From a virus, in the IMG/VR virus record IMGVR_UViG_3300030099_002697, positions 1-35,679 of that record: DNA of 35,679 bases; one strand, 5' to 3'. Below the pieces are notes generated by a model, which ran no database searches, was not told the DNA's origin, and saw only the letters and a program-made list of their open reading frames with translations. Positions 1,088-35,679 of the stretch are shown piece after piece (within the stretch, counting starts at the first letter, position 1; every line of letters begins with the position of its first letter). A program made the position numbers and the translations under genes.

Positions 1088-1366
1088 ATGACAATTAAAG
1101 ACTTTAGAAAACTAGATAATGGTGGCAAGGTAAAGGGTTTCATGACTATCGTAACTAACGAGGGTTTTGAAATGAAGAACTTTAAGCTGATTGAAGGAGC
1201 TAATGGTTTGTTTGTTGGTGCACCTAGCCAGAAAGGTACTGACAAAGAAGGAAACGAGAAGTGGTATGATATGGTGTGGATTCCTAAGGAACTAAATGAA
1301 CAGCTTGTAGACCTTGTTGCTAATGAGGTAGACATGAACCAAGAGTCAAACCCTGTACCATTTTAA
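1088..1366 (+). CDS. SpoVG-like nucleic-acid-binding protein with an SSB-like C-terminal tail
   Basis: 92 residues. The stretch GKVKGFMTIVTNEGFEMKNF, then KLIEGANGLFVGAPSQKG and a later KWYDMVWIP, follows the beta-sheet core of SpoVG proteins (conserved IEG-x-NGLFV-x-xPS). These are small site-specific DNA- and RNA-binding proteins. After a helix the protein ends in an acidic linker and ESNPVPF. That resembles the acidic D-D-D-I-P-F tail of bacterial single-stranded DNA-binding proteins, which recruits partner proteins. RBS AAAGGAG lies at 1076-1082. It sits in the replication/recombination operon, so a role as a nucleic-acid-binding accessory, possibly replacing SSB, is inferred. Confidence 0.8.
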   Translation: MTIKDFRKLDNGGKVKGFMTIVTNEGFEMKNFKLIEGANGLFVGAPSQKGTDKEGNEKWYDMVWIPKELNEQLVDLVANEVDMNQESNPVPF

Positions 1367-2864: not shown

Positions 2865-3048
2865 AGATAGGATAATTGATTCATTAGACGCTACCCTAAG
2901 AGACTTAGAGATAAGGGCTTGTTGGGTCGGTTTAAAGGCTACAGAGATGAACTACACACAGAAGCTAGAGTACGTTATGTCATTCTGGAGCGTAAGCAAA
3001 GAAACTGCAGAGAAGGCATTGTATAGTGACAAAACTATCAGCCAGTGA
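2842..3048 (+). CDS. Hypothetical helical protein (68 aa)
   Basis: GTG start at 2842 with AAGGAG (2829-2834) at normal spacing. The gene overlaps the 3' end of the NinG-like gene by 23 bases and the next start by 23 bases, so translation is coupled. The sequence is predicted all-helical. The C-terminal part (FWSVSKETAEKALYSDK) has the look of a small helix-turn-helix: a helix, a short turn with S, and a second helix. No family is recognised. Confidence 0.55.
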   Translation: MKTRLTNKDRIIDSLDATLRDLEIRACWVGLKATEMNYTQKLEYVMSFWSVSKETAEKALYSDKTISQ

Positions 3049-3457
3049 TAAGGGATATGTAGGAGAGCTATTCTGTGTCTTTTATTTAAACTTGCACAAC
3101 TACTCAGCAATGATAGTTCCAAATCGTAGACCCTACGATGTAGCGATGGAACACGATGGAAAGCTTATTAAGGTGCAAGTAAAGACCAGCACCTATAAGA
3201 ACCATGAGAACAAGGGATATGATGCTGGGTACTGCTATAGCATTAACAGACGTAGTAGGATTACCAAGAACAATAAAGTCTTTCACTACTACGAGCACTA
3301 CAATGATTTTGATTGTGATATATTTGCTTTTGTACAGCCTAGACTTTATAAGATTGCATTCTTCCACGTTAAGCAGATTGATGTAAAGTACAGAAAGATA
3401 TTAAGACCAGAGCACTTTGAGGACTATCCGATTGAGAAGGCTTTGGAGTATATGTAA
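3026..3457 (+). CDS. PD-(D/E)XK endonuclease of the group I intron endonuclease (I-Ssp6803I-like) type
   Basis: 143 residues. The expected catalytic order is visible: E14 in KGYVGELF, D38 in NRRPYDVAM, then Q51 and K53 in IKVQVKTST. The Q-x-K variant and the spacing resemble I-Ssp6803I, whose reported active site is E, D, Q, K. The rest is a mixed alpha/beta core followed by aromatic strands. No group I intron surrounds the gene, so it may be a free-standing homing enzyme, or a structure-specific nuclease of the replication system. GTG start 3026 has AGAAGG at 3011-3016. It is the last gene of the early operon, just before the terminator. Confidence 0.75.
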   Translation: MTKLSASDKGYVGELFCVFYLNLHNYSAMIVPNRRPYDVAMEHDGKLIKVQVKTSTYKNHENKGYDAGYCYSINRRSRITKNNKVFHYYEHYNDFDCDIFAFVQPRLYKIAFFHVKQIDVKYRKILRPEHFEDYPIEKALEYM

Positions 3458-3504: not shown

Positions 3505-3651
3505 TTATTGTCGCTCATCTATACACTTAACACATAGAGGTAAATCAAAACCATCATCTTCAGTTTCTAGTATAGGATACCAATCTACATCATCTTTAAG
3601 CTCTTCACAATCAAAGCATCTTTCAAAAGCAGGAAGTATAGTTAAAGCCAT
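3505..3651 (-). CDS. Small acidic zinc-knuckle protein (48 aa)
   Basis: The leftward ORF encodes a protein with C12-x2-C15 (RCFDCE) and C40-x2-C43 (PLCVKC), a two-knuckle zinc site, separated by a strongly acidic loop (EETEDD-like composition). It is the last gene of the leftward block. Its ATG overlaps the stop of the gene before it (TAATG on the minus strand), and GGGGG precedes it. The acidic character and tiny size fit a protein that mimics nucleic acid or binds a host factor, but this is inference. The intergenic stretch up to the terminator holds nothing else. Confidence 0.65.
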   Translation of the reverse strand: MALTILPAFERCFDCEELKDDVDWYPILETEDDGFDLPLCVKCIDERQ

Positions 3652-3845
3652 TACTTACCCCCTTCCACTAGTATGATATTAACTTTACAGCTTTCTGGAT
3701 TATGAGTATCAAACTCTAAGCCATGTTCAAAGGCTAGCTTATATAGTTTGATTTGCTCTAAATCATAATCAGTATCTGGTACCATTGTGATTTCTGTAAC
3801 TCCACTTGTTGGTTCTTTTCTTAGTATTTGTATTGCGTATTTCAT
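3651..3845 (-). CDS. Hypothetical protein (64 aa)
   Basis: The ATG at 3845 is preceded by AAAGGAGTGGC and overlaps the upstream stop, so it is translationally coupled to the ribbon-helix-helix gene. The protein is acidic, with an N-terminal beta strand (MKYAIQIL), a middle helix and a final strand (CKVNIILVEGG). This is consistent with a small alpha/beta fold. No family is recognised. Confidence 0.65.
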   Translation of the reverse strand: MKYAIQILRKEPTSGVTEITMVPDTDYDLEQIKLYKLAFEHGLEFDTHNPESCKVNIILVEGGK

Positions 3846-3979
3846 TATGCCACTCCTTTTAAGTAATTATGTATTATAAAGTTAATGTGCTTACCTACAC
3901 TACGATGGTTCTTTTTAGCATCTTTATCAAGAGCTTTTTTAATTTCTAAGTCCATCATTACATTTACATTTTTTTTCAT
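3845..3979 (-). CDS. Ribbon-helix-helix (Arc/MetJ-type) regulator (44 aa)
   Basis: The protein begins MKKNVNVMMDLEIKKALDK and continues with DAKKNHRSVGKHINFIIHNYL. This is the ribbon-helix-helix layout: a short basic beta strand (residues 2-8), helix A (9-23), a turn, and helix B (27-40). Its 44 residues are close to the minimum for phage Arc-like repressors, which bind operator half-sites as dimers of dimers. It is the only clear DNA-binding regulator in the genome, so it is the natural candidate to act at the palindromes in the divergent control region, or on its own promoter. Start and stop overlap the neighbours. Confidence 0.7.
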   Translation of the reverse strand: MKKNVNVMMDLEIKKALDKDAKKNHRSVGKHINFIIHNYLKGVA

Positions 3980-4102
3980 TTAGTTCTCCAATTCAGTTAA
4001 ATGTTCATCTACATTTTTAGCAACATAATTAGGAATATCAGATAAATATTCTTTTGTGCCATCTTCCCAAGTTATTTTTATAGTCCAATGTATTATTTTC
4101 AT
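3980..4102 (-). CDS. Hypothetical protein (40 aa)
   Basis: The short frame MKIIHWTIKITWEDGTKEYL, then SDIPNYVAKNVDEHLTELEN, looks like a beta hairpin followed by a helix. The ATG overlaps the stop of the preceding gene and AAAGGA lies just upstream. It is one of a run of six coupled tiny genes on the minus strand. Its unbroken coupling on both sides is the main evidence that it is real. No known family. Confidence 0.55.
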   Translation of the reverse strand: MKIIHWTIKITWEDGTKEYLSDIPNYVAKNVDEHLTELEN

Positions 4103-4888: not shown

Positions 4889-5839
4889 TTATTTTAGTAT
4901 GAAATCACTAGCTTTTTCAGCTCTGCCACCAGCCCATATAATCCAACTAGGCTCACTCTTTAACTTCTTAGCCCAGCCCTTGCAATAGGCAGATGTATTC
5001 TCCATAACTCTCTCAGATTCTAATCCAGCTTTATAGCATAGTATTGCACTACCAATTTCAGCAACAAGCTCTTCCTTAGAATACTCATGACTACCAAAGT
5101 AATTACTCTTTGTTAAGGTGTCTCTATTCAATCTGCTTTCATGCCCAGTGCTGTGAACCATTTCATGAAACATGGTGCTGTAAAAATGCTGTTTGCCATC
5201 CTCTTCATTTTGACCAACTTGCAACGCTTTTTCAACAGATTGCTCGATAGTAGGAACCACAATCATGTCATCAGATGGAGCATAGTAAGCTCTATCACCA
5301 AGCTTTTCAGTAATCTTAAGAGTTTTGTTTTTAGATTTATAGTTAGAAACTATATCATCTGCAACCTTGATTCTATCAACTGGCTCTGGCTTTTCTGGAG
5401 TTTCTGGCATCTCAATACCCTCGCATTGCTCGATATTGAATACAGTAAAAGTTTTAAGGATAGGTCTATTGTCGGTTACTGGAACCCCATCATCATCTAA
5501 TATCACATTACCAGTAGAGTCTTTAACCTCATACTCAAAGAACTTCCAGAATACAACTGGAGTACCCTTCTCACCACGCTTAACTGAACCACCAAGCTGT
5601 TTAGCTCCATTGTAGGTAACCCATGAATTGAACTGATAACCCTTAGTCATCATAACCATAGTCAAGATGATTGTGTTAGAACCATGATACTCTTTTTTTG
5701 AATTGTAGTTATGAGGGGCACCACCAATCTCTGAACTAGCCCAAGGCTTAATCCAAGGGCAGATATCTTTGTTAAGTCCATCAACAATGATGTCGGTTAC
5801 TTTCTTACAGATGTCTTGTGTTGTTTGTCTCTTTTTCAT
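4889..5839 (-). CDS. ardC: ArdC-like antirestriction protein
   Basis: 316 residues. The N-terminal domain (about 1-130) matches ArdC_N/DUF1738, a single-stranded DNA-binding domain: PWIKPWA, then P-x-N-x-x-x-x-x-x-Y-x-G-x-N, W-x-TY, and LGGSVKRGEKGTPVVFWKF. The C-terminal domain is a zincin metallopeptidase with H225-E-x-x-H229 in FHEMVHSTGHESRLNR and the downstream EELVAEIGSA that supplies a conserved acidic region. ArdC proteins of plasmids and phages protect incoming DNA from restriction. The start ATG has AAGGAGTAGCAAA before it. It is the first gene of the leftward block, as expected for an anti-defence gene expressed early. The size is normal for the family and all key residues are present. 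Confidence 0.9.
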   Translation of the reverse strand: MKKRQTTQDICKKVTDIIVDGLNKDICPWIKPWASSEIGGAPHNYNSKKEYHGSNTIILTMVMMTKGYQFNSWVTYNGAKQLGGSVKRGEKGTPVVFWKFFEYEVKDSTGNVILDDDGVPVTDNRPILKTFTVFNIEQCEGIEMPETPEKPEPVDRIKVADDIVSNYKSKNKTLKITEKLGDRAYYAPSDDMIVVPTIEQSVEKALQVGQNEEDGKQHFYSTMFHEMVHSTGHESRLNRDTLTKSNYFGSHEYSKEELVAEIGSAILCYKAGLESERVMENTSAYCKGWAKKLKSEPSWIIWAGGRAEKASDFILK

Positions 5840-22913: not shown

Positions 22914-23651
22914 ATGACAAGAAAACAAAAAAGATTTATAAAAAATGTAAACAGGTCAAATCGAGACCCTAATACTGGATATCAAGATGAGAGAAGTGGT
23001 CAATATTACATCACAGATAATGATGGTAATTTTTTAAAGTTTGTATCTGAAGAAGAAGCAAGAAATCAAAATAAAAAACAAGAAGTTGATGAACAAGCCA
23101 AAATGCAAATTCTAAAAGAAGAATCTTTATATGATGAAAAATCAAGAAAAAAACTTGAACAAATGAAAAAAAATCCAGCCTTTGCTATGGATACTATTGA
23201 TGAAGCAATTAACGAATATTTTACAAAAAAAGCAAAATTAAGAGAGGAAGTTGCTAAAGTTAGTCTAGATAGTGAAGAATTTATTACAGACGAAGATATC
23301 CAAGAAGCAGCAAAAAAATATCCTAGAATAAGAAATATGGCAAGAAATTCAAAAAAGGCTATGGCTAAAGCATTTAAATTATCAGAAACTACTGATGCAG
23401 TTACAAGACAAGAGGTTATAAACAGAGTAGGAGCTTCCTCAGAATCACCTACAACACCTAAAGATATAATAATGTCTCCAGAATTAAGGGCTGAAACTTC
23501 TATGAAAAAAGAATCTTTAATGAGAAAAAATATGGATGTTCAACCTGGTTCATTTTCAACTAAGCCTAGTTCAAAAGAGCAAATTATGAAAAGAATGCCA
23601 AAGAAAAAATACAGTGACGATGAACTACTAAGGATAATATCAGGTAAATAA
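22914..23651 (+). CDS. Charged helical protein (245 aa), probable virion protein
   Basis: RBS AGGGG 4 bases before the ATG. The protein is very rich in K, E, R and N. The first 40 residues resemble a small beta segment (TGYQDERSGQYYITDNDGNF), the rest is charged helix. No enzymatic motif. The stop overlaps the start of the giant polyvalent gene (TAATG), so the two are probably coexpressed and may be packaged together. No family recognised. Confidence 0.6.
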   Translation: MTRKQKRFIKNVNRSNRDPNTGYQDERSGQYYITDNDGNFLKFVSEEEARNQNKKQEVDEQAKMQILKEESLYDEKSRKKLEQMKKNPAFAMDTIDEAINEYFTKKAKLREEVAKVSLDSEEFITDEDIQEAAKKYPRIRNMARNSKKAMAKAFKLSETTDAVTRQEVINRVGASSESPTTPKDIIMSPELRAETSMKKESLMRKNMDVQPGSFSTKPSSKEQIMKRMPKKKYSDDELLRIISGK

Positions 23652-26600
23652 TGGCTAACCCATTTAAGAATTTATTTAAAAGTAAATATACTACTTTTTA
23701 CTCAGTAGACGATTTAAACGAAGAACAAAAAAATTACATACGAGATGAGTATGCTAAATATCAAGCAAACCCAGAGCAGTTTGATGAACAGTATGGAACA
23801 GCTATAGTAGAGCTAGAGAATCGCTTACGAACCCCAGACCCACTCCTAAGAACATACGAATCTATAGAAGATGATACTACAGGAAGAGGAGCATTCCAAC
23901 AAAGAAGAACAGTAGGGGATAAAAGATTAAGAGTAGCAGCAGAAGCTAAAGAAAGAAAAAAACTTAAAACATCATACCTGTATGGACAAATAGAAGACTA
24001 CGAACCTAAAAATTCATTAACAGATGTACAATCAGTTATAGACCAAAAAGAAGACAAGGGTGAAATACAAAAAGCTGTACAAGAAATTGATAATAAAAAA
24101 AGACAATATTATGCAGAAAGATTTGGTTATGATTTATATGAAGACAATGGTAATCAAGCTTGGAAACAATGGATAGAAGCAGTAAGAGATGACCCTACAT
24201 TATTAGAAAAAGTTTTACAAAAGTCTCCAAAAATTACAGAAGCTGCACGAGAAAAACCTGGAATTGAAGAGAGTATGCTAAGAAAGAAATGGCAAAATTC
24301 TTTACAAAAAGGAACCCTGGAAGAAGATTTTTATGACATAGATATTAAAGATTTACAGCGAGCACAAGAAGAAAGAAATAAAAAAGTTTTTGGAGTAAGT
24401 GATGCCATAGCAGATATAAAAAATAATTGGGAAAAATATATTCCAGGTGGTGGATTTATAGAAGCTAAAGAACTACTTGATATATACGATTTATCAAAAA
24501 GATTTGATGAAAACCCTTCATCATTATCTGACCAAGAATTTAATCAATTAAAAAACTGGGTAGAATATCAAGATTTTCAAGGCACAGCTACATGGGGTGC
24601 ACAGCTTGTGCAAATGTTAGCACAAATGCCATCTTTTGGAATTGAAATAGCAGTGTCTGGTGGAGCAGTATCAATAGCGAGTAAAGCAGGTAGGGAAGCA
24701 ACGATTACTGCAATGCAAAAATATTTAAATGAAGGATTAAAAAGAAAAGTTAGAAATGAAGTAAAAGAAAGAACAGCATTAAAAGTAGCAAAAAGTGCAG
24801 GAACTAAAGTTGCTATTACTACAGTAGGAACATCATTATCTGGAGACGTAGAAGTAAATAAAATACGAAATTTAATGCCTGGATATGAACAGCTAGATGG
24901 AGAGCTATTTAAAATTTATAATGGCATGGATGAACTATCTGCTGAAAGACAAGCATATTGGGGAACATTTTTAGAGTTTGGTTCAGAGCAAATAGGTGGT
25001 GTTCCTGCAAGATTTGCAAAGTATATAAACAAAACTAAGGTAGGCAAATATACAGGAGAAAAGTTTTCTAAAGCTTGGAATAAATTAAATCTTCCTAACA
25101 AAGAATATTTAATGAGCACAGCAGCAATGAGAGCTTTTAAGAAAGTAAATGCAGGGGCAAGCAATAAAGATATAGAAAAAATATTTAGAACCTTTGGTTA
25201 TCATGGTGTAATTGAAGAGATGTTTGAAGAAAGAGCAGCAGACGCAGGAAGACATATTTTAAATCTTTTATCGACAACAAAAGATGAAAATGGGAAACCA
25301 TTAATAGAAGGATTTGAAAACAAAAATTGGCAATGGCAAAATCCTACATGGGAACAGCTATCATTAGAATTAGTAGCTTTTTCTGTCCCAGGCTTTGCAA
25401 AAAGAAAATTATCTCAAGCATACAACAATGTATACGAAGCTAAACAAAATAAAAAAATAGAAGATTTTAATAATAGAAATAAAGACTTTGGCGAAAAAAT
25501 TACAGAGGTAGAGCAAGAAGTAGAGAATAATGAAGTAAGACTTGGAGAGCTATCTAATAAAATTGAAGAGGGTGGCATTGAAAGCTTAGAGCAAGAAGAA
25601 ATTGTAGAAATTAAAACTATAATGGAGACTAAGCAAAAAAAGAATGTCCTTCAGTTTATGAGAGATTTAATTATAAGAGACCCATCATTAGAAAAAGAAG
25701 TTGACCTTGATATAAATTTAGACCAAGAAATGCAAAGAACAAAAGAGCAACTAGAGCAAGAAGGAGTAAGCTTAGAGGGAGAAGGACTATCAGGAGATAT
25801 TAAGTCTGTAAATGTTTTAGGCTTTACAATGTTTAATAATTTAAAGTTAAAATTTGGACTAAGAAAAGGTGCTGATTTAGATACAGCAATAGAAGAATAT
25901 TATGGAGCATATTACAGAGGTGGTCTCACAGAAGAACAAAGCGATACTTTTGAGCAGCATTACGATAGGTACGAATCTGATGAAAGTTATAGAATAGAAG
26001 TAAACGAATTTATTAATGATATGATGGAAGATATGGGTATGTCAGATAAAAAAATTGCTAATGTATCCCAAACCCTTACAGAGCAAGAATTATTTGAAAA
26101 AGAGGGAAAATCATACGAATATAAAAGCACACAAGAGGAAAGAGGTGGCATAGCTGACAAAACTTTTCAATTTATAAGCAATATGTTTAATAGGGCGTTT
26201 AAAAGCGTAAACGTCTCAGCAGGAGTAGCTGATATATATAAGCAGGTACAAAAAAGAAAAGAAAGAATTTCTACAGAGCGTGCACAAAAATTAGAAGCAA
26301 GAAGAGCAAAAAGGCAAGAACGTCAAGAAGAAAAACAGGCAAAGCAAGAAGCTAAAGAAACAGAAAAGCAAGAAAAACGTGAAGCTAAAGAAACTGCTAA
26401 AGAAGAGAAGCGTGAAGCTAAACAAGATAGAAAGCGTAAAAGGTTAAGACCTGGAGTTGAACCTACATTAGATGAAAGATTTGATGACGCACAATATGAA
26501 GAGGTTGCCGAGCCAGAGCTTGAAGACCTACCAGATATAGTACAACCCAAACCTAAAGAAATTAAGGAAAGAAAAAAACAAGCTAAAAAAATTAAGTCAA

Positions 26601-29600
26601 AGCCAAGATTATTTAATTTTCTTAATCGTAGAGCTCGTAAGCTTGCTCGTAAAAAAATTGAAACAATATCTCCTGTAGCGATTAGAGAGGTAAAAATAAA
26701 GCTAGAGCAACAAGCTCCTAAGCAGGTAATACCAGATGACCCTAGACAGCCACTAGAAATACTAAGAGATATACTTGGTGATGAGCAGTTCCAGGAATTG
26801 ACTGGTATATATACAGGTCCAATACAACAAATAGAAACTATAGAGCCACGAATAATAGAGACTCTAAAGGAGAAGTTTGAACCCCTACCATATGAATCAC
26901 TAGACTTCTTTGATGTAATACCAGAAAAGAAACAAGAACAAATACTGAAAGAGGTAGAGAAGAAGGTAGGCAAAGAAACAATCAAACCTATTAGAGACCT
27001 TAAGAAGCCTAAAAAGCCAGGAGCAAGGGTAACTGAAGATGAGACATTTGAAGATGAAACTTACGATGATGTACCAAAACCAAAGCTAGATAAGCTTCCA
27101 AAGATTAAAAAGCCTAAAAAGAAAAGACCATCTTATCAACTTGCTGCAAAAAGAGCATATAAATATTTACCTAAAGATAAAAAGAAACAAGAAGATAGAT
27201 TAAGAAAATCTACAAATAGAGATGAGTCTGTAGCACAGCCTAAAAACCCACCTATAGTTTTTGAAAACGATGACTATAGAATTACTATAGGAAATAAATC
27301 TTTTGAAGATTGGGTAAAAGACACAGAAAAGAATTTAAATCCAGATGAAATTGCAGAAGCAGCAAATTGGTATGATGATGTTTACGATGAAATAGCAAAT
27401 GTTGTTCCAAGAAAAGATGTAGAAAAAGTGTTTATGTCATGGTTAATTGCACAAAAACAAGAATCACCAATAGGAGCATTTGGAGGAACTTTAAAAGTTA
27501 AAGAAGAAGTAGAGTTAGATATTAGGAGAACAAAACCTAAAACAGGTGATTATTTAAAGTCAGGTGGATTATCTGATGAAAATATGAGAAGAATATTTAG
27601 AGATATACCAATAGAAGGTGGAGTTGGTGCAAAACTTTTAGACTTTGTAGATAGTGCAATTAATTCACCTACAAGATTTGTAGTAGGGAATAAGCCAGAG
27701 GGTGGAGCACCATATGTAGTTGATAGACACACATGGAATGGAAGAGGGTATGTTAGCCCTGTATTTTTACGATACATGGAGAAAGCATTTGGTGCTGAAA
27801 AATTAAAAAACTTACAATTAGATAATACAAAAGATGACAAGCCAAGTGATACGCAGTATGACCAAACATCAATATGGGGTAATAACTTAACTAAATATTT
27901 AAATAAAATAAAATGGGGTGGTAAAAGTAATTGGACAGCCCCTCAAATACAAGCTATAGACTGGACAAGTATAGTTAAGTTTAAATCTAATTATGGAAAA
28001 GTCGGAGGAACTATACAAGATGCAATAAAAGAAAATACAGCAGTTATAAATTTTGAAACTGTATTCGGAGAAGGCACAAGCTATGAAAAAGACTACCCAG
28101 AAATAAAAGAATTTAATTATGATGACTTAGCAAAGTTTACAAACACTACAAGCGACTTTATTAATAATGTAGTTGACGAAGTATTAAGACCATTAAACAT
28201 TGCTACAATACAACAGACTGGTGGCTGGTTAGATTATAATATGGCACCAAGTGTTACTAGGCAAGTATTAATACCAAAAGATAGAATAGAGACAGCTTTT
28301 TCTATAATAGGATATTTATCTCAACAAACTAAAATCATGGGCTTTAGACCTAATCCTAAAGGTAAGGATATGGCATTATGGTTTAGCTCTGAGTCCTTTA
28401 GAGACCCTAAAGTTGCAGATACATTTTATAGAACAATGAGAGAGCGACATCCTGATATTTTTCAAGGATACAGCTCTGGAGAGTATGAAGGGTCCCCAGC
28501 TTTAATTGTATATCAAGAAGTAAATGCAAAGGGTAATGCAGAGAAGAAAAAAGAAATACTTGATAATAAAATAAAAGAAGTAGTAGATTTAATAGAATCT
28601 GATATTACTGATTATGCAAAAACATTAGATAATAAGATAGATTACGAAACTCAAATCGTTGATATGTACGCAGTTGAAAACGATTGGAAGGAAAATAAAA
28701 ATGGCGAAAGCTACTTACAAAGGATTAATGAAACCCTCGGACAAGAGGTACAAGATAGGATATCTGGTCAGTACAGGGAGGAATATAAATCCATCCTCGA
28801 CCAAGAAATCAAACAAAAGCAAAAAGCCCCTAAAACAAAACAAAAAGTAAGCTACCAGCTTAAACCACTAGACCAACCTGCAGAACTACCAGACGAAACA
28901 TGGTCAGAAATATTTAAACGTAAAGTAGTAAACAGGTTAAGTCGTTTAGAAAAAGTTACAGCAGAAATAGGGGATGTAGACGAACAAACAAATGCCTACC
29001 TCGCAGCTGTTTTATATGAAGGTAAAACAGAAGACAGAATAGATAGATTCCAAAAATACATAGAAGATTATATTAAGCGTCTTAAAAAAGCTGGCTTTAC
29101 AGTAGATGACATAGGAGAATACCTATACGCTAGACACGCAGAAGAACGTAATGCAAAAGTTAAAGAAGATGACCCTACGTTTGAAGGCACAGGCTCTGGA
29201 ATGACTAATGAAGAAGCTGATGCAATACTAGAAAGATTTGAAGGAACAAAAATACAAAGGTTCGCAAGAGAGTTTGATAGAAAAGTAATTAGAGAAAGAT
29301 TAAACATCCTTAAAAAAGGTGGATTAATAACACAAGAAACATATGATTTCTTTACTGAAGAGTCCCCATACGAAAACTATGTACCATTAAAAGGGACATC
29401 AGAGAAAAAACAAGGTGGTACAGGAACCTCTGGGTTTAGCATAGTAGGCAAAGACATTAAAAGAAAAAGAGGTAGAAACTCTAGAGCTGACAATCCATTT
29501 GTACAAGCACTTGTTGACTATGAGCTAGCTATAGTTAGGGCAGAAAAAAATGAAGTGTCATCTAAGTTTTACTTATTTACATTAGAGAACCCATCTAACC

Positions 29601-31324
29601 TATGGGAGGTTGGAGGTAGAAGATATTTACCTAGATACGACAAAGATGGAGAAGTAGCATTCTTTGACCCCATGACATTACAGGAGAACCAAGTACAAGC
29701 GTTTGTAGATGGTAAGCTAAAAGTAATAACAATAAATGATACAGGCTTATTAAACGCAATGAAAAATCTTGGTACAGGAACAACATTTAGATTTGCACAA
29801 AAATTTAATACATATTTAAGAGCGATTTACACATCATTTAACCCAGAGTTTTTAATAACAAACTTTGAAAGAGATATACAAACAGCTTTGATAAATATGC
29901 AAGCATCTACAGACATAAAAGTAACGTCTAAAATTATGAAAGATATTATGGGTGGTGCACCTATGAGAGCTATATACAGAACAAGGCGTGAAAAAGGCGA
30001 TGCAAAACTATCTATAAATCAAGAAAAGCTTAACGAATATAGAAAATACTACGCAGAGTATAAAAAAGAAGGTGGTGCTATGGGATGGGTAGCAACACAA
30101 TCTGTAGAGGATAAACTTAACGACCTTAAGAAAGTAATCGCAAGAGCACAAAGCTCTCGTAATCCAAAACAATTTTTCAGATATTTAGGTAAATGGGTAG
30201 AAGATATGAATATGACTGTAGAGCAAGCAGTCAGACTAGCAACATACGCTAACCTTAGAAAATCTGGATTGTCTAGAGCAGAAGCTGCAAAAATATCAAA
30301 GGAGCTTACAGTAAACTTTAATCAACAAGGTGAGATGGGTTCACTAATAAATACCCTATACCTATTTTCAAATGCAACCATCCAAGGTAATTACTTTTTA
30401 TATAAAGCTTTTAGGAAAAGCAAAAAAGTTAAAGCAGCATCAGCAGGAATAATACTAGCTACAGTAATACTCAATATATTTAACAGGATGAATGGTGGTG
30501 ATGATTGGGAAAAGTACAGCGATTATGAAAAAGATTTCCACTGGCTATACATACTTCCTAATGGTAATGTTGTAAAAATGAAGGTTCCATATGGCTATAA
30601 TATATTCCATGTGATGGGTAACGTAACAGAGGAAGCTATAGCAGGCAAGATAACATACGATAAAGCATTTACAAGAGTGTTAGAGTCTATTTTACACGCT
30701 GCTAGCCCAATAGGGTATGGAGAAGGATTTTCGCAGTATGTTCCAACAGTATTTGGATTAAAGCCTATGGTAGAAATATGGTTAAATGAAAACTTTATGG
30801 GTGGTAAAATAAGACCAGACCAACCTCATTTTGGTCAAAATAAACCAGATAGTCAACTATATTTTGATTCAATAAATCCTGATATAAAAGCAGTAACTAC
30901 TTGGGTAAATAAAGTAGCAGGGGGTTCTGAAACAGTTAGCCCCAGAGGCATAAGAAGATTGGCTGATGTAAGTCCAGAAACTTTAGAGCATATGTTAGAT
31001 ACATTTACAGGTGGTACTGGTAGATTTATAGAAAGAAGCTACAGGACAGGAAAACAACTCCTTCAAGGTAATGTTCCTCCACTTAAAGAAATACCATTTG
31101 CAAGAACATTTGTTTCAGAGCCAAGCAAATATACAATGCTATATAAAATGTATGATATGTACGAAGAGTCTGCTAGAACAATTTATACTAAAAATGAAAT
31201 AAAAGAATTTAAAAGATATTTATCAAGTAGCGTTAAAGATGGAGCTATAGAAAATAAAAAAGCTCAAAGAATTATGAACACATTTAATAAAAACCAACGT
31301 GAAGCAAGGGCATCAATGAAATGA
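23651..31324 (+). CDS. Giant polyvalent/internal virion protein with LPD38-like domain (2557 aa)
   Basis: One frame covers more than a fifth of the genome. Regions: a charged helical start (1-300); an amphipathic stretch (about 312-350); coiled coils (about 610-700); a K/E/R/A-rich low-complexity helix (874-940); an acidic-proline repeat twice (about 941-970 and 1130-1160, D-E-x-F-x-D...P-x-L-x-x-LP). Next comes a conserved-looking helical domain (about 1230-1600) with WYDDVYDEI and VVDRH. The segment FNPEFLITNFERDIQTALIN (about 2070) resembles LPD38, the large polyvalent protein associated domain; ILATVILNIF is a membrane-like segment. SYQL occurs at 1161 and 1734, before each new part. Phages inject such proteins with their DNA, like T7 gp16 or DarB. 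No catalytic site is certain. Confidence 0.7.
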   Translation: MANPFKNLFKSKYTTFYSVDDLNEEQKNYIRDEYAKYQANPEQFDEQYGTAIVELENRLRTPDPLLRTYESIEDDTTGRGAFQQRRTVGDKRLRVAAEAKERKKLKTSYLYGQIEDYEPKNSLTDVQSVIDQKEDKGEIQKAVQEIDNKKRQYYAERFGYDLYEDNGNQAWKQWIEAVRDDPTLLEKVLQKSPKITEAAREKPGIEESMLRKKWQNSLQKGTLEEDFYDIDIKDLQRAQEERNKKVFGVSDAIADIKNNWEKYIPGGGFIEAKELLDIYDLSKRFDENPSSLSDQEFNQLKNWVEYQDFQGTATWGAQLVQMLAQMPSFGIEIAVSGGAVSIASKAGREATITAMQKYLNEGLKRKVRNEVKERTALKVAKSAGTKVAITTVGTSLSGDVEVNKIRNLMPGYEQLDGELFKIYNGMDELSAERQAYWGTFLEFGSEQIGGVPARFAKYINKTKVGKYTGEKFSKAWNKLNLPNKEYLMSTAAMRAFKKVNAGASNKDIEKIFRTFGYHGVIEEMFEERAADAGRHILNLLSTTKDENGKPLIEGFENKNWQWQNPTWEQLSLELVAFSVPGFAKRKLSQAYNNVYEAKQNKKIEDFNNRNKDFGEKITEVEQEVENNEVRLGELSNKIEEGGIESLEQEEIVEIKTIMETKQKKNVLQFMRDLIIRDPSLEKEVDLDINLDQEMQRTKEQLEQEGVSLEGEGLSGDIKSVNVLGFTMFNNLKLKFGLRKGADLDTAIEEYYGAYYRGGLTEEQSDTFEQHYDRYESDESYRIEVNEFINDMMEDMGMSDKKIANVSQTLTEQELFEKEGKSYEYKSTQEERGGIADKTFQFISNMFNRAFKSVNVSAGVADIYKQVQKRKERISTERAQKLEARRAKRQERQEEKQAKQEAKETEKQEKREAKETAKEEKREAKQDRKRKRLRPGVEPTLDERFDDAQYEEVAEPELEDLPDIVQPKPKEIKERKKQAKKIKSKPRLFNFLNRRARKLARKKIETISPVAIREVKIKLEQQAPKQVIPDDPRQPLEILRDILGDEQFQELTGIYTGPIQQIETIEPRIIETLKEKFEPLPYESLDFFDVIPEKKQEQILKEVEKKVGKETIKPIRDLKKPKKPGARVTEDETFEDETYDDVPKPKLDKLPKIKKPKKKRPSYQLAAKRAYKYLPKDKKKQEDRLRKSTNRDESVAQPKNPPIVFENDDYRITIGNKSFEDWVKDTEKNLNPDEIAEAANWYDDVYDEIANVVPRKDVEKVFMSWLIAQKQESPIGAFGGTLKVKEEVELDIRRTKPKTGDYLKSGGLSDENMRRIFRDIPIEGGVGAKLLDFVDSAINSPTRFVVGNKPEGGAPYVVDRHTWNGRGYVSPVFLRYMEKAFGAEKLKNLQLDNTKDDKPSDTQYDQTSIWGNNLTKYLNKIKWGGKSNWTAPQIQAIDWTSIVKFKSNYGKVGGTIQDAIKENTAVINFETVFGEGTSYEKDYPEIKEFNYDDLAKFTNTTSDFINNVVDEVLRPLNIATIQQTGGWLDYNMAPSVTRQVLIPKDRIETAFSIIGYLSQQTKIMGFRPNPKGKDMALWFSSESFRDPKVADTFYRTMRERHPDIFQGYSSGEYEGSPALIVYQEVNAKGNAEKKKEILDNKIKEVVDLIESDITDYAKTLDNKIDYETQIVDMYAVENDWKENKNGESYLQRINETLGQEVQDRISGQYREEYKSILDQEIKQKQKAPKTKQKVSYQLKPLDQPAELPDETWSEIFKRKVVNRLSRLEKVTAEIGDVDEQTNAYLAAVLYEGKTEDRIDRFQKYIEDYIKRLKKAGFTVDDIGEYLYARHAEERNAKVKEDDPTFEGTGSGMTNEEADAILERFEGTKIQRFAREFDRKVIRERLNILKKGGLITQETYDFFTEESPYENYVPLKGTSEKKQGGTGTSGFSIVGKDIKRKRGRNSRADNPFVQALVDYELAIVRAEKNEVSSKFYLFTLENPSNLWEVGGRRYLPRYDKDGEVAFFDPMTLQENQVQAFVDGKLKVITINDTGLLNAMKNLGTGTTFRFAQKFNTYLRAIYTSFNPEFLITNFERDIQTALINMQASTDIKVTSKIMKDIMGGAPMRAIYRTRREKGDAKLSINQEKLNEYRKYYAEYKKEGGAMGWVATQSVEDKLNDLKKVIARAQSSRNPKQFFRYLGKWVEDMNMTVEQAVRLATYANLRKSGLSRAEAAKISKELTVNFNQQGEMGSLINTLYLFSNATIQGNYFLYKAFRKSKKVKAASAGIILATVILNIFNRMNGGDDWEKYSDYEKDFHWLYILPNGNVVKMKVPYGYNIFHVMGNVTEEAIAGKITYDKAFTRVLESILHAASPIGYGEGFSQYVPTVFGLKPMVEIWLNENFMGGKIRPDQPHFGQNKPDSQLYFDSINPDIKAVTTWVNKVAGGSETVSPRGIRRLADVSPETLEHMLDTFTGGTGRFIERSYRTGKQLLQGNVPPLKEIPFARTFVSEPSKYTMLYKMYDMYEESARTIYTKNEIKEFKRYLSSSVKDGAIENKKAQRIMNTFNKNQREARASMK

Positions 31325-32892: not shown

Positions 32893-33474
32893 ATGAGTAA
32901 GATAGATTTATCTAAACTAACGCAACCAACACCAGAAGATAGGATTAAACACAGAACCCAAGCAGGGGTAAAGCTGTCGTACGTTGATGCACGATACTGC
33001 ATGGATGTACTTGATGATGTGGTAGGTCCTGAAAACTGGAGTGATGATTACAAAGAAGTAAAGGGTTTGTTGATGTGTGGTGTATCCATCAATGTTAATG
33101 GAGTTAAAGTAACAAAGTGGGACACTGGAACTGAGGCAAACTTTGAAGGAGAAAAGTCTATAGTTAGCGACTCATTTAAACGAGCGTGTGTTAAATGGGG
33201 TATAGCAAGGGATTTATACGATACTAAAAAGGCTGGGGGGAACGCTACTCCGAAACCACAAGGGGTTCCTAATGCCCCAGGTCCCCAGCCAGTCTCTCCA
33301 ACAGCCAAACAATCAGAATACATACTAGACTTTGGTAAGCATAGTGGCAAGTTTATCTCAGATGTTCCTCTTGATTATCTTAAATGGTTTCTAAACCAGA
33401 AGGACAATAAGAAGGATGAGAAAAAGTATAATGTATTTCTAAGTGAATACCACAAAAGAAAAACAAATGATTAA
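32893..33474 (+). CDS. Rad52-like single-strand annealing protein with ExoX-like C-terminal motif
   Basis: 193 residues, RBS AGGAG. The N-terminal domain (1-112) follows Rad52/Rad22-type annealing proteins: LSYVDARYCMDVLDDVVGPE, W49 in ENWS, a strand VSINVNG, then SDSFKRACVKWGIARDLYD with the conserved D-x-x-K-R-A and GIAR-x-LY. A P/G-rich linker (113-140) leads to a C-terminal segment (142-166) DFGKHSGKFISDVPLDYLKW. That matches the short motif at the C-terminus of exodeoxyribonuclease X-like proteins (DUF3820-like, FGKY-G-K). Such phage recombinases pair DNA strands for replication and repair. It is the first gene of the early operon and is followed by an exonuclease gene, the usual pair. 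Confidence 0.85.
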   Translation: MSKIDLSKLTQPTPEDRIKHRTQAGVKLSYVDARYCMDVLDDVVGPENWSDDYKEVKGLLMCGVSINVNGVKVTKWDTGTEANFEGEKSIVSDSFKRACVKWGIARDLYDTKKAGGNATPKPQGVPNAPGPQPVSPTAKQSEYILDFGKHSGKFISDVPLDYLKWFLNQKDNKKDEKKYNVFLSEYHKRKTND

Positions 33475-34201
33475 GCACGTTGAGGGAACAAGGTATGGTA
33501 GGTTCTATGACATTGGGGATGGTATATACGTCCCCAGTGTTACTACTGTTACTAGATATGGATGCCCCACACCTAATTACCTTCTAAAGTACATTGTGAA
33601 CAACTCAAAGGGTGACTATGATAAGTATTTAGAGACTAACTCTGAAGCACTTAGAGTAGGAACTGCTGTACATGATAGCTGTGAGAAGCTTTTGTTAGGT
33701 GAGGACTTACTTATTGAGAACGACCCAGAGGTGCAGAAAGGTGTGATAAGTTTTTGTAAGTGGTATCAAGAGTATTTACCTAAAGTTATATCAGTAGAAG
33801 AGGTACTATACGCTAAGAACCATAGACAAGGTAAGCTTATATGCCCATTTGCTGGTAGATGTGATTTAGTAGTAGAGATGAACGATGAGACATGGATGAT
33901 AGACCTAAAGACATCTAAGAGCTTAGAGGATTATACTTATGTTATTCAACTTAGTATGTACAAGATGCTATGGGATATAAGACATCCAGAGAGACCAATA
34001 GATAGACTGGCTTTAGTACATTGTAAAAAGAACTTTATGGGTGCACAGCCTACAGCAAAAACAAAGCTTTTTAAAGAGGTAGAGTTTGATGAGAAGTCTG
34101 TGAAGGCAGCTGTAAGATTTTTTTATAAGTACCAAGAAGCCTTTGACAATAAAGGGAACCTAAAAACACAACCAAAATTACAGACTGAATTTAAACTATA
34201 G
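33467..34201 (+). CDS. PD-(D/E)XK exonuclease, RecB/Cas4-like
   Basis: I take ATG 33467 (244 residues), which overlaps the previous stop; a GTG at 33443 would add 8 residues. Motifs: GTAVHDSCE with H70, then AGRCDLVVE with D133, then WMIDLKTSK with D146 and K148, and YVIQLSMYKML with Q161 and Y165. These are the RecB-family motif set of phage recombination exonucleases and Cas4. It should resect DNA ends for the annealing protein. No cysteine cluster for an Fe-S site is apparent. The next gene has its own GGAGTAGCG leader. Confidence 0.85.
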   Translation: MIKHVEGTRYGRFYDIGDGIYVPSVTTVTRYGCPTPNYLLKYIVNNSKGDYDKYLETNSEALRVGTAVHDSCEKLLLGEDLLIENDPEVQKGVISFCKWYQEYLPKVISVEEVLYAKNHRQGKLICPFAGRCDLVVEMNDETWMIDLKTSKSLEDYTYVIQLSMYKMLWDIRHPERPIDRLALVHCKKNFMGAQPTAKTKLFKEVEFDEKSVKAAVRFFYKYQEAFDNKGNLKTQPKLQTEFKL

Positions 34202-34209
34202 GAGTAGCG

Positions 34210-34893
34210 ATGAACGATTATATAGTAATACCAGGCAGTATTTTAAGGGATGATAACCTTACCTATATGCAGAAGCTTATATTGGCTAAAATCACTAATT
34301 TAGATAACGATAAGGGGTGTTTTGCAACCAACAAATACTTTGCAAGACTATTATCCACATCTATAAATAGTGTATCAAAGACAATAAACCAGTTAAAAAG
34401 TATGGGATTAATTGAAGTAGAAATAACAAACAATACAGACAGAAGTATAACCCTAGCCAAAAAGTGTAGGGGGGATGTCGTAAAAGTTGAGGGGGGGTCG
34501 CCTAAAAGTGTAGGGTCTTCCGATACTATTAATATAGATACTAATATAGATAATAATAAAATATATAAAAGTTTTATTGATTGGTGGAAATTATATGACA
34601 AAAAAGTTGGTAAGGATAAGGCTCTTAAGTTCTGGACTAAGAAGCTTAACCAGTCTCTAGTGGATGATATTATGAACCACACTAAGCGTTATGTAAAAGC
34701 TACTGATAAGCAGTACAGAAAAAATCCATACACTTACCTGTTTAATAATTCATGGGAAGATGAGATAATGAACGAGGTAGAGGAAGTAAAGTCAAATCCA
34801 ATAGAAGACCAAAAAAGATTAAGGCTATACAATCAAATGAACAATACAGACTTTCAATCGATAGAGGAAGCAAGAGCTCATGCCAATGGTTAA
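34210..34893 (+). CDS. Winged-helix replication initiation/replisome organiser protein (putative)
   Basis: 227 residues, RBS GGAGTAGCG immediately before the ATG. Residues 15-85 (LTYMQKLILAKITNLDNDKG, CFATNKYFARLLSTSINSVS) are a winged helix-turn-helix (HTH_36 type) found at the N-terminus of phage replication proteins. A linker (about 88-120) is rich in N, D and S. The C-terminal part (SFIDWWKLYDKKVGKDKALK, FWTKKLNQS, then NPYTYLFNNSWEDE) is the second, helical domain that such proteins use to contact the replisome or helicase. It should recognise the origin, possibly within this gene as in many phages, but I do not see clear iterons. The last 14 bases overlap the next gene. Confidence 0.75.
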   Translation: MNDYIVIPGSILRDDNLTYMQKLILAKITNLDNDKGCFATNKYFARLLSTSINSVSKTINQLKSMGLIEVEITNNTDRSITLAKKCRGDVVKVEGGSPKSVGSSDTINIDTNIDNNKIYKSFIDWWKLYDKKVGKDKALKFWTKKLNQSLVDDIMNHTKRYVKATDKQYRKNPYTYLFNNSWEDEIMNEVEEVKSNPIEDQKRLRLYNQMNNTDFQSIEEARAHANG

Positions 34894-35215
34894 ACTAGGT
34901 GATGCTATGCGACCACTTACAAGTAAGTTTGATATTGATTTAAGCTTGGGAGAAAAGTATGAAGACTCTCTTGCTCAGATATTAACCATATCCAAGATAG
35001 AAGTAAAAGCAGAAATAGATAAGTGGAGAGATACAGGTAACATAGCTATAGAGATTAGATGTAATGGAAAGCTATCTGGATTATCTGTAACTAAAGCAGA
35101 CCACTGGTGTCATGTTTTATCTTACAAGAATGAAATTAAAATGATATTAATATTCCCTATAGAAGAACTAAAAAGAATAGTTAGGGAGCTAGTAGACAAA
35201 AAGAAGCTAAGGTAG
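34880..35215 (+). CDS. Nuclease-like phage protein (PD-(D/E)XK-like), frameshifted in this copy
   Basis: The ORF as read has 111 residues. Motifs: FDIDLSLGEKYE (E25), KIEVKAE (E41 and K43), TGNIAIEI, and SGLSVTKADHW. These follow a phage family with a PD-(D/E)XK-like core, probably a nuclease or resolvase. Near 35195-35200 five A replace the six A of the left copy (95-100), so the tail is lost. With the missing base the frame would reach 35286 (135 residues), ending VPLDKLKGVA and TAG. That agrees with the left copy. The frameshift is a homopolymer sequencing error or a strain difference. The core residues remain. Confidence 0.7.
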   Translation: MPMVKLGDAMRPLTSKFDIDLSLGEKYEDSLAQILTISKIEVKAEIDKWRDTGNIAIEIRCNGKLSGLSVTKADHWCHVLSYKNEIKMILIFPIEELKRIVRELVDKKKLR

Positions 35216-35285
35216 TTATGGGTGGTGATAATAATAAATCACAGCTCGTACTGGTACCCTTAGATAAACTGAAAGGAGTAGCATA

Positions 35286-35555
35286 GTGGAGATTTATCAA
35301 ATAGTATATGGTTTTAGAGGTCATCATTACAATGAATATTTCATGACCCTAAAAGAAGCAGAGAAAGCTAAAGAAGAAATAGAGAGTAAGTACATTGATT
35401 TAATTGGATGGGTTGGGTTACTTGTTATAGAAGATGTTCCTAAAACGAAAAAAGGAATAGTAGTCCTCTTAAATAACAGCACGATGAGAAGAATAGATTT
35501 TATTAATCATTTAGAAGAATATGCTGAATCAACTAAAGAGAAAGGAGTAGCATGA
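35286..35555 (+). CDS. Hypothetical protein carried by the variable cassette (89 aa)
   Basis: GTG start just behind GGAGTAGCAT; the upstream stop TAG would overlap it. The protein has a beta-alpha start (EIYQIVYGFRGHHYNEYFMT, then LKEAEKAKEEIESKYIDL), a strand WVGLLVIEDV and a final helix. No family recognised. The gene is absent from the left copy of this region, so it is accessory. Its own last bases contain the RBS of the next gene, so cassette insertion does not disturb the operon. Confidence 0.65.
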   Translation: MEIYQIVYGFRGHHYNEYFMTLKEAEKAKEEIESKYIDLIGWVGLLVIEDVPKTKKGIVVLLNNSTMRRIDFINHLEEYAESTKEKGVA

Positions 35556-35650
35556 GATATAAAGATGAATTAGAGCTAATAATAATGATAGGAATACTGG
35601 TAGTAGGAACTATTTCACTTCTAATGTTAGTGAGGTCAGCATGGATATAA
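35552..35650 (+). CDS. Small single-pass membrane protein (right copy)
   Basis: 32 residues: MRYKDELELIIMIGILVVGT followed by ISLLMLVRSAWI. Same gene as 180-278 with three amino-acid changes (R to K at residue 4, A to S and V to L in the membrane segment). All changes are conservative, which suggests selection to keep the peptide. ATG overlaps the cassette gene stop; AAAGGAGTAGC precedes it. Confidence 0.6.
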   Translation: MRYKDELELIIMIGILVVGTISLLMLVRSAWI

Positions 35651-35679
35651 TGAAAAAAATTGAAGAGATATATCCAGAG
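35641..35679 (+). CDS. Start of the MazG/DUF1599-like gene (right copy, partial)
   Basis: The first 13 codons (MDIMKKIEEIYPE) are identical to those of the gene at 269-625. The window ends here, which closes the circle. Confidence 0.8.
   Translation, partial: MDIMKKIEEIYPE

Follow-up and report, generated by a model that had tools for sequence, protein, structure and literature searches.

We identified, in the viral DNA analysed here (IMG/VR record IMGVR_UViG_3300030099_002697, positions 1 to 35,679; the whole 35,679-nucleotide stretch is hereafter the window), a 92-residue open reading frame (ORF; positions 1088-1366, + strand) that probably encodes a SpoVG-fold protein bearing, on a disordered tether, a C-terminal docking peptide of the type carried by bacterial single-stranded DNA-binding protein (SSB), and acting as a hub; we put the probability of this reading at about 60%. 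The phage form would be a member of a tip-bearing SpoVG family whose chromosomal members in Neomarinimicrobiota carry DDDIPF-type tips. More tentatively, at somewhat under even odds, we propose that SSB is split in pelagic Neomarinimicrobiota, with the tip moved to the unrelated SpoVG fold and the OB protein left with its ssDNA-binding domain alone, and that phages, which would use it as a hub in the manner of SSB, and defence-like operons that contain a helicase have acquired the tip-bearing SpoVG.

A SpoVG core with an SSB-type end in a phage replication module

The ORF matches the Pfam SpoVG family (PF04026) over residues 6-77 with 40.4 bits, against a cut-off of 29.6. It does not reach the NCBIfam equivalog ‘septation regulator SpoVG’ (36 bits against a cut-off of 108), so the sequence match places it in the SpoVG family without implying that it is an orthologue of the sporulation/septation protein. 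An AlphaFold model built with 41 relatives predicts with confidence (mean pLDDT 87.8) a SpoVG core of six strands and a C-terminal helix (residues 67-80), together comprising residues 1-80 (positions 1088-1327, + strand). The ten best Foldseek matches of the model in the PDB are all SpoVG chains (2I9Z, 2I9X and 2IA9; E 5.6e-4 to 1.6e-2). Among the PDB matches, OB-fold SSBs come in only at E ~1 and a probability of ~0.1, none of them significant. These results bear out the SpoVG-like core of the original prediction, which had been made from the DNA letters. A weak PDB profile match to an anti-RecBCD protein (E 0.078) was taken as chance.

The core is followed by the tail VDMNQESNPVPF (residues 81-92; positions 1328-1363, + strand), which is predicted to be unstructured (block means of pLDDT 55 and 44) and which, from its low pLDDT and composition, is a putative tether and docking tip. 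The original prediction had described an acidic linker with an end like that of SSB. Acid is present, with two acidic and no basic residues among the last 12, and as there are only two the description holds in a mild sense. The tip has the expected P-F end, and the acid that adjoins P-F in D-D-I-P-F is missing: the window ends in NPVPF with no acid in the last six residues, and its tip is degenerate. Because this acid is absent, the window tip may suit a narrower set of partners or bind more weakly.

A profile search of viral contigs yielded 32 loci, comprising nine close relatives, 13 diverged relatives of the same type and ten SpoVGs of farther types. All nine close loci keep NPVPF, including the P-V-P-F end (positions 1352-1363, + strand in the window), which is weak evidence since they are 86-100% identical. 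The diverged loci are more informative: 11 of the 13 end in P-F (DEGIPF, DDIPF, SDLPF, EDVPF, DEIPF twice, EKIPF, TDLPF, DEGVPF and TMPF twice) on linkers that are unlike in length and letters. The two TMPF loci (L034 and L036) are near copies, and counting them once leaves 12 distinct diverged loci. Among other ORFs, a PF end occurs in only three of 410, taken from the window and from 16 viral loci that include close relatives of one another. The retention of P-F on unlike linkers, at a rate so far above this background, argues that selection acts on the end independently of the linker, and the reading of the SpoVG tail as a docking peptide is well supported by these comparisons. The conservation of the terminal P-F, proposed earlier as a check on the prediction, was thus found across the diverged phage relatives. 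Relatives lacking the motif, which were to count against it, are confined to two of the 13 diverged viral loci (L027, ending in SDSLSF, and L028) and to more distant SpoVGs such as those of Firmicutes and Omnitrophota. No P-F end was found in the ten viral loci of farther types or among the nine loci read of 12 matches in a phage collection.

One phage whose SpoVG has no tip (L058) encodes a 190-residue ORF (3514-4086 of that locus) that has no Pfam or PHROG match and ends in DEEMPF. This protein is a possible second carrier of the tip, judging by its last residues, and a search of viral contigs for its relatives found only itself.

The ends of the window form an imperfect repeat in two blocks (1-181 against 35105-35284, 98.9% identical; 162-307 against 35534-35679, 96.6%), with about 250 bases between the blocks at the right end only, and in two relatives (L050 and L051) the right end is continuous into the left. 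Genes at both ends of the record thus lie in one module, all on the + strand. Upstream of spoVG, across the ends, are genes for an Erf/Rad52-like single-strand annealing protein (32893-33474; phrog_1097, E 3.8e-26, and PF04098; order seen in L050 and L051), a PD-(D/E)XK exonuclease (33443-34201; phrog_298, E 2.7e-29, and PF12705) and a DnaD-like replication initiator (34210-34893; phrog_270, E 9.1e-28, and HTH_36). These are followed by a DUF1599-like, nucleotide-modification-associated ORF (269-625; PF07659 at 21.5 bits, below the cut-off of 25), which also lies just upstream of spoVG in L063. After spoVG come an 86-residue ORF of no family that starts at the spoVG stop (1366-1626; counterpart in L055 only), a NinG-like junction nuclease (2466-2864; phrog_5034, E 3.4e-21, and PF05766; counterparts in L055, L059, L063 and L032) and a PD-(D/E)XK endonuclease (3026-3457; PF11645; counterparts in L055 and L059). 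The order with annealing protein, exonuclease, initiator and NinG was counted for the window, L055, L059 and L063. Two of these, the diverged phages L059 and L063, retain an annealing protein (Sak, Rad52), exonuclease, initiator, spoVG and NinG, and the predicted replication and recombination neighbours are thus present in the window and in both. Ten further diverged loci have at most one or two of the window's module genes in common by sequence, partly because their initiators or other genes belong to other families.

As had been noted for the window, no SSB gene was found: the OB-fold SSB family (PF00436) is absent at E<=0.1 from the window and 19 related viral records, several of which are fragments, and a PHROGs scan of 20 window proteins gave no match to an SSB family. 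We had considered that an OB-SSB might take the place of SpoVG in some phages; a small home-made SSB profile likewise detected none in 20 annealing-protein loci, many of them fragments.

The window also encodes an ArdC-type anti-restriction protein with ArdcN and zincin-like metallopeptidase domains (4889-5839, - strand) and, between virion genes, a single ORF of 2557 residues (23651-31324). Its terminase has only three matches, all distant (31-36% identical), in 245 Neomarinimicrobiota genomes, which assigns no host. A relative of this terminase in one such genome (L417; G072:C231:9453-10520) contains 12 TGA codons in frame and may therefore come from a recoded phage.

Chromosomal SpoVG tips and tipless OB-SSBs in Neomarinimicrobiota

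The original prediction lacked a larger setting, in which chromosomal SpoVGs of Neomarinimicrobiota carry canonical tips beside tipless OB-SSBs. A scan of cellular genome contigs gave more than 597 pattern matches; from the 80 best-matching loci we read 63 SpoVG ORFs (one locus, L097, runs off its contig), 17 of which end in PF. These belong to Neomarinimicrobiota, two bacterium/FCB records and one Melioribacter. On long linkers, these proteins have SSB-like ends such as FSDDDIPF, SDEDVPF, SDEDIPF and DEIPF, and the SpoVG ends of Candidatus Neomarinimicrobiota (SAR406) match the SSB tip letter for letter. The tip is absent from the other SpoVGs read, from Bacillota, Omnitrophota, Elusimicrobia, Armatimonadota and most Melioribacteraceae. 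As a background, five of 1057 ORFs in the cellular loci end in PF, and two of the five are themselves OB-SSBs.

We drew 199 of 245 Neomarinimicrobiota genomes, leaving 46 outside the draw. SpoVG is present in 32 of the 199, and in 30 of these 32 (all except G028 and G100) a copy ends in PF; the SpoVG tail of G117, for example, ends in TDDDIPF. On the SpoVG tree (84 columns, with many open forks) the presence of the tip needs four changes. Placement of SpoVG at the rpsF-ssb-rpsR locus was considered and set aside, as inspection by eye of several Neomarinimicrobiota loci found spoVG adjoining succinate dehydrogenase-like genes instead.

The OB-SSB was found in 172 of the 199 genomes by PF00436 (the 27 without a match are to be read knowing that metagenome-assembled genomes, MAGs, may be incomplete), and its tail was read in these 172 as well as in three further genomes, not part of the draw, that have a SpoVG tip. 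Among the 142 genomes without a tip-bearing SpoVG, the OB-SSB is tipped in 139 and tipless in three. Among the 33 with one, it is tipped in 23, the two tips thus often coexisting, and tipless in ten. In these ten genomes the OB-SSB stops 0-8 residues past the OB domain as a closed ORF, and several tipless OB-SSBs have, by eye, the same neighbours as tipped ones. The association of the tipless state with the SpoVG tip (10/33 against 3/142) has a Fisher p of 3e-6, and within the draw (8/30 against 3/142) a p of 4e-5; both values ignore kinship. The counts keep as tip-bearing two genomes (G014 and G019) whose OB-SSBs fall outside the Neomarinimicrobiota SSB clade and are perhaps contamination, a choice that works against the handover of the tip.

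Tipless OB-SSBs with no SpoVG found occur in G084, in G161, where the SSB is an odd frame of 386 residues, and in G194, a MAG whose OB-SSB groups with that of tipless G156 and whose spoVG may lie outside the assembly. The ten tipless OB-SSBs all belong to a single supported clade, whose 22 rows represent Neomarinimicrobiota SpoVG-tip genomes and G194, and need about four changes on the SSB tree, two of them forced by well-supported branches. An independent-pairs test, which corrects for phylogeny, found two supported pairs, was not significant and has no power.

We then searched the ten tipless genomes and the three exceptions for [DE][DE][FILMV]PF directly before a stop codon. In eight of the ten, the single match is the end of spoVG. 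G156 has two extra matches, neither of them at an ORF end, and G192 has one, the tip of a second SSB that contains unread bases. With the pattern reversed as a control, each genome yielded 0-2 matches, and the ten tipless genomes three in all. In nine of these ten, therefore, no ORF other than spoVG was found to carry such a tip.

E. coli depends for its survival on the recruitment of partners by the SSB tip. If such recruitment is equally vital here, SpoVG, as the sole carrier in nine of the ten genomes, is the obvious supplier of the tip, and the loss of the tip from the OB-SSB suggests that SpoVG most likely provides the hub function of SSB in trans in all ten. Outright replacement of the host SSB was rejected, because the first 19 genomes searched all have an OB-SSB and it is the tip that differs. 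Separately, three Ignavibacteria-type genomes (G011, G012 and G010; loci L164, L166 and L167) each have two OB-SSBs: one, between rpsF-like and rpsR-like ORFs, has no P-F tip and a shared end like FDKFL[ST]DEESDL, and the second ends in DDLPF.

Docking, nucleic-acid binding and competing explanations

A spoVG with a tip or PF end also occurs in three helicase operons, one from Melioribacter (L074, 1-10425) and two from genome G006 (L423, 4951-14523, and L424, 158-10912). In each, spoVG is preceded by an ORF of 195-198 residues ending in H-x-F-G-G-x-K and by a DpdF-like DEAD-box helicase, which in L074 has a RecQ zinc-binding match. The defence-type genes after spoVG differ: L074 encodes a DrmD-like helicase and a type IIG restriction enzyme, L423 a PLD-domain protein and L424, farther on, DUF697 and CHAT proteins. 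From its gene content this looks like a defence-like operon with varying effectors, apparently undescribed. RecQ is a partner of the SSB tip, which fits docking of the helicase on the SpoVG tail.

The SpoVGs of Borrelia burgdorferi, Staphylococcus aureus and Listeria monocytogenes bind DNA, and binding by the S. aureus protein requires two basic residues, K50 and R51, according to the accessible part of PMC3688583. At the position equivalent to K50, the window and 15 of 23 tip-bearing rows have Q, and only one of the 23 has a basic residue (R). The R51 equivalent is K in 21 of the 23 and in the window. A Trp is gained in 19 of the 23 tip-bearing rows, compared with three of 20 tipless rows; the window has Gly there. 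We consider it likely that the tip-bearing SpoVGs bind nucleic acid, perhaps in an altered way, as the first basic residue is not kept and a Trp is gained. SpoVG is known to bind RNA and specific duplex DNA, and the portions of the literature accessible to us describe no coating of ssDNA. For the tip itself, the accessible text of PMC7145534 reports that a nine-residue SSB tip peptide binds partners alone and that the interactions examined there between SSB and its partners require the tails.

We propose that the SpoVG core would hold phage nucleic acid during replication and annealing, as the tested SpoVGs and the gene order suggest, while the hydrophobic-Pro-Phe tail would dock into the SSB-tip pockets of host enzymes. 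The docked enzymes would thereby be brought to phage DNA, instead of or beside the host OB-fold SSB.

The phage tail could instead act as a decoy, occupying the SSB-tip pockets of host enzymes such as recombination or defence helicases and blocking them without delivery to DNA. A degenerate tip might suffice for some of the partners, and the ArdC-like anti-restriction gene indicates that this phage carries other counter-defence functions. However, a decoy leaves unexplained why the same type of tail is found on the chromosomal homologues and on the spoVG copies of the helicase operons, and it sits poorly with a gene order that places spoVG among replication and recombination genes; we regard it as unlikely. 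The tail might also serve autoregulation, folding back on the SpoVG core and competing with nucleic acid, with no partner docked. Such competition has been proposed for the acidic tail of the T7 protein gp2.5 and reportedly also for that of Hfq, and a linker with an acidic end, disordered in the AlphaFold model, would suit it. Autoregulation needs acid rather than a precise hydrophobic-P-F end, yet the window protein has little acid left and keeps P-F, and in Neomarinimicrobiota the end reproduces the whole SSB tip, which makes this explanation distinctly unlikely. That the protein is an ordinary SpoVG transcription or RNA regulator, with a tail of little import whose resemblance to SSB is coincidence or relic, would agree with its family, with the tested SpoVGs being sequence-specific DNA-binding proteins (accessible part of PMC3688583) and with the listing of viral spoVG as a sporulation-related auxiliary gene (accessible parts of PMC8940887 and PMC12713726), but is quite improbable given the excess of PF ends in diverged viral loci over other ORFs and the sole carriage of the tip by spoVG in nine tipless-SSB genomes.

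Relation to known proteins and significance

The window protein has its sequence family and predicted fold in common with the SpoVGs of Bacillus subtilis, S. aureus and B. burgdorferi, to which the tip-bearing proteins add a disordered linker and an SSB-type end, with Q usually replacing the first basic residue. Its likeness to bacterial OB-fold SSB (PF00436) lies in a disordered linker of variable length and an end of D-D-[IVL]-P-F type; the window protein, in contrast, has neither an OB fold nor a PF00436 match, and the tip sits on an unrelated fold. T7 gp2.5 is a phage OB-fold SSB with an acidic tail ending in Phe. Like the window protein, phage SSBs of this type are encoded by the phage within a replication module and bear a short partner motif at the C terminus, but gp2.5 has an OB fold and the window protein a SpoVG fold. 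ThermoDBP is an archaeal, non-OB protein that stands in SSB's place in Thermoproteales. The likeness here is a non-OB protein standing in for SSB; ThermoDBP, however, has another fold, and in the present case the OB domain would be retained and the docking tip alone transferred.

The SpoVG fold and the SSB motif are each known, and their combination and the handover of the tip appear to be undescribed. No description of such a handover was found in the open-licence literature searched on SpoVG together with Marinimicrobia or SAR406, with SSB and bacteriophage, and with ssDNA; subscription papers were mostly outside this scope.

Many replication and repair enzymes dock at the SSB tip, which is regarded as integral to SSB. 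If the handover of the tip is true, the covering of ssDNA and the recruitment of enzymes, both functions of SSB, would be separable in evolution. Viral spoVG genes would then belong with replication and recombination genes, and not with the sporulation-related auxiliary genes among which virome papers place them (accessible parts of PMC8940887 and PMC12713726).
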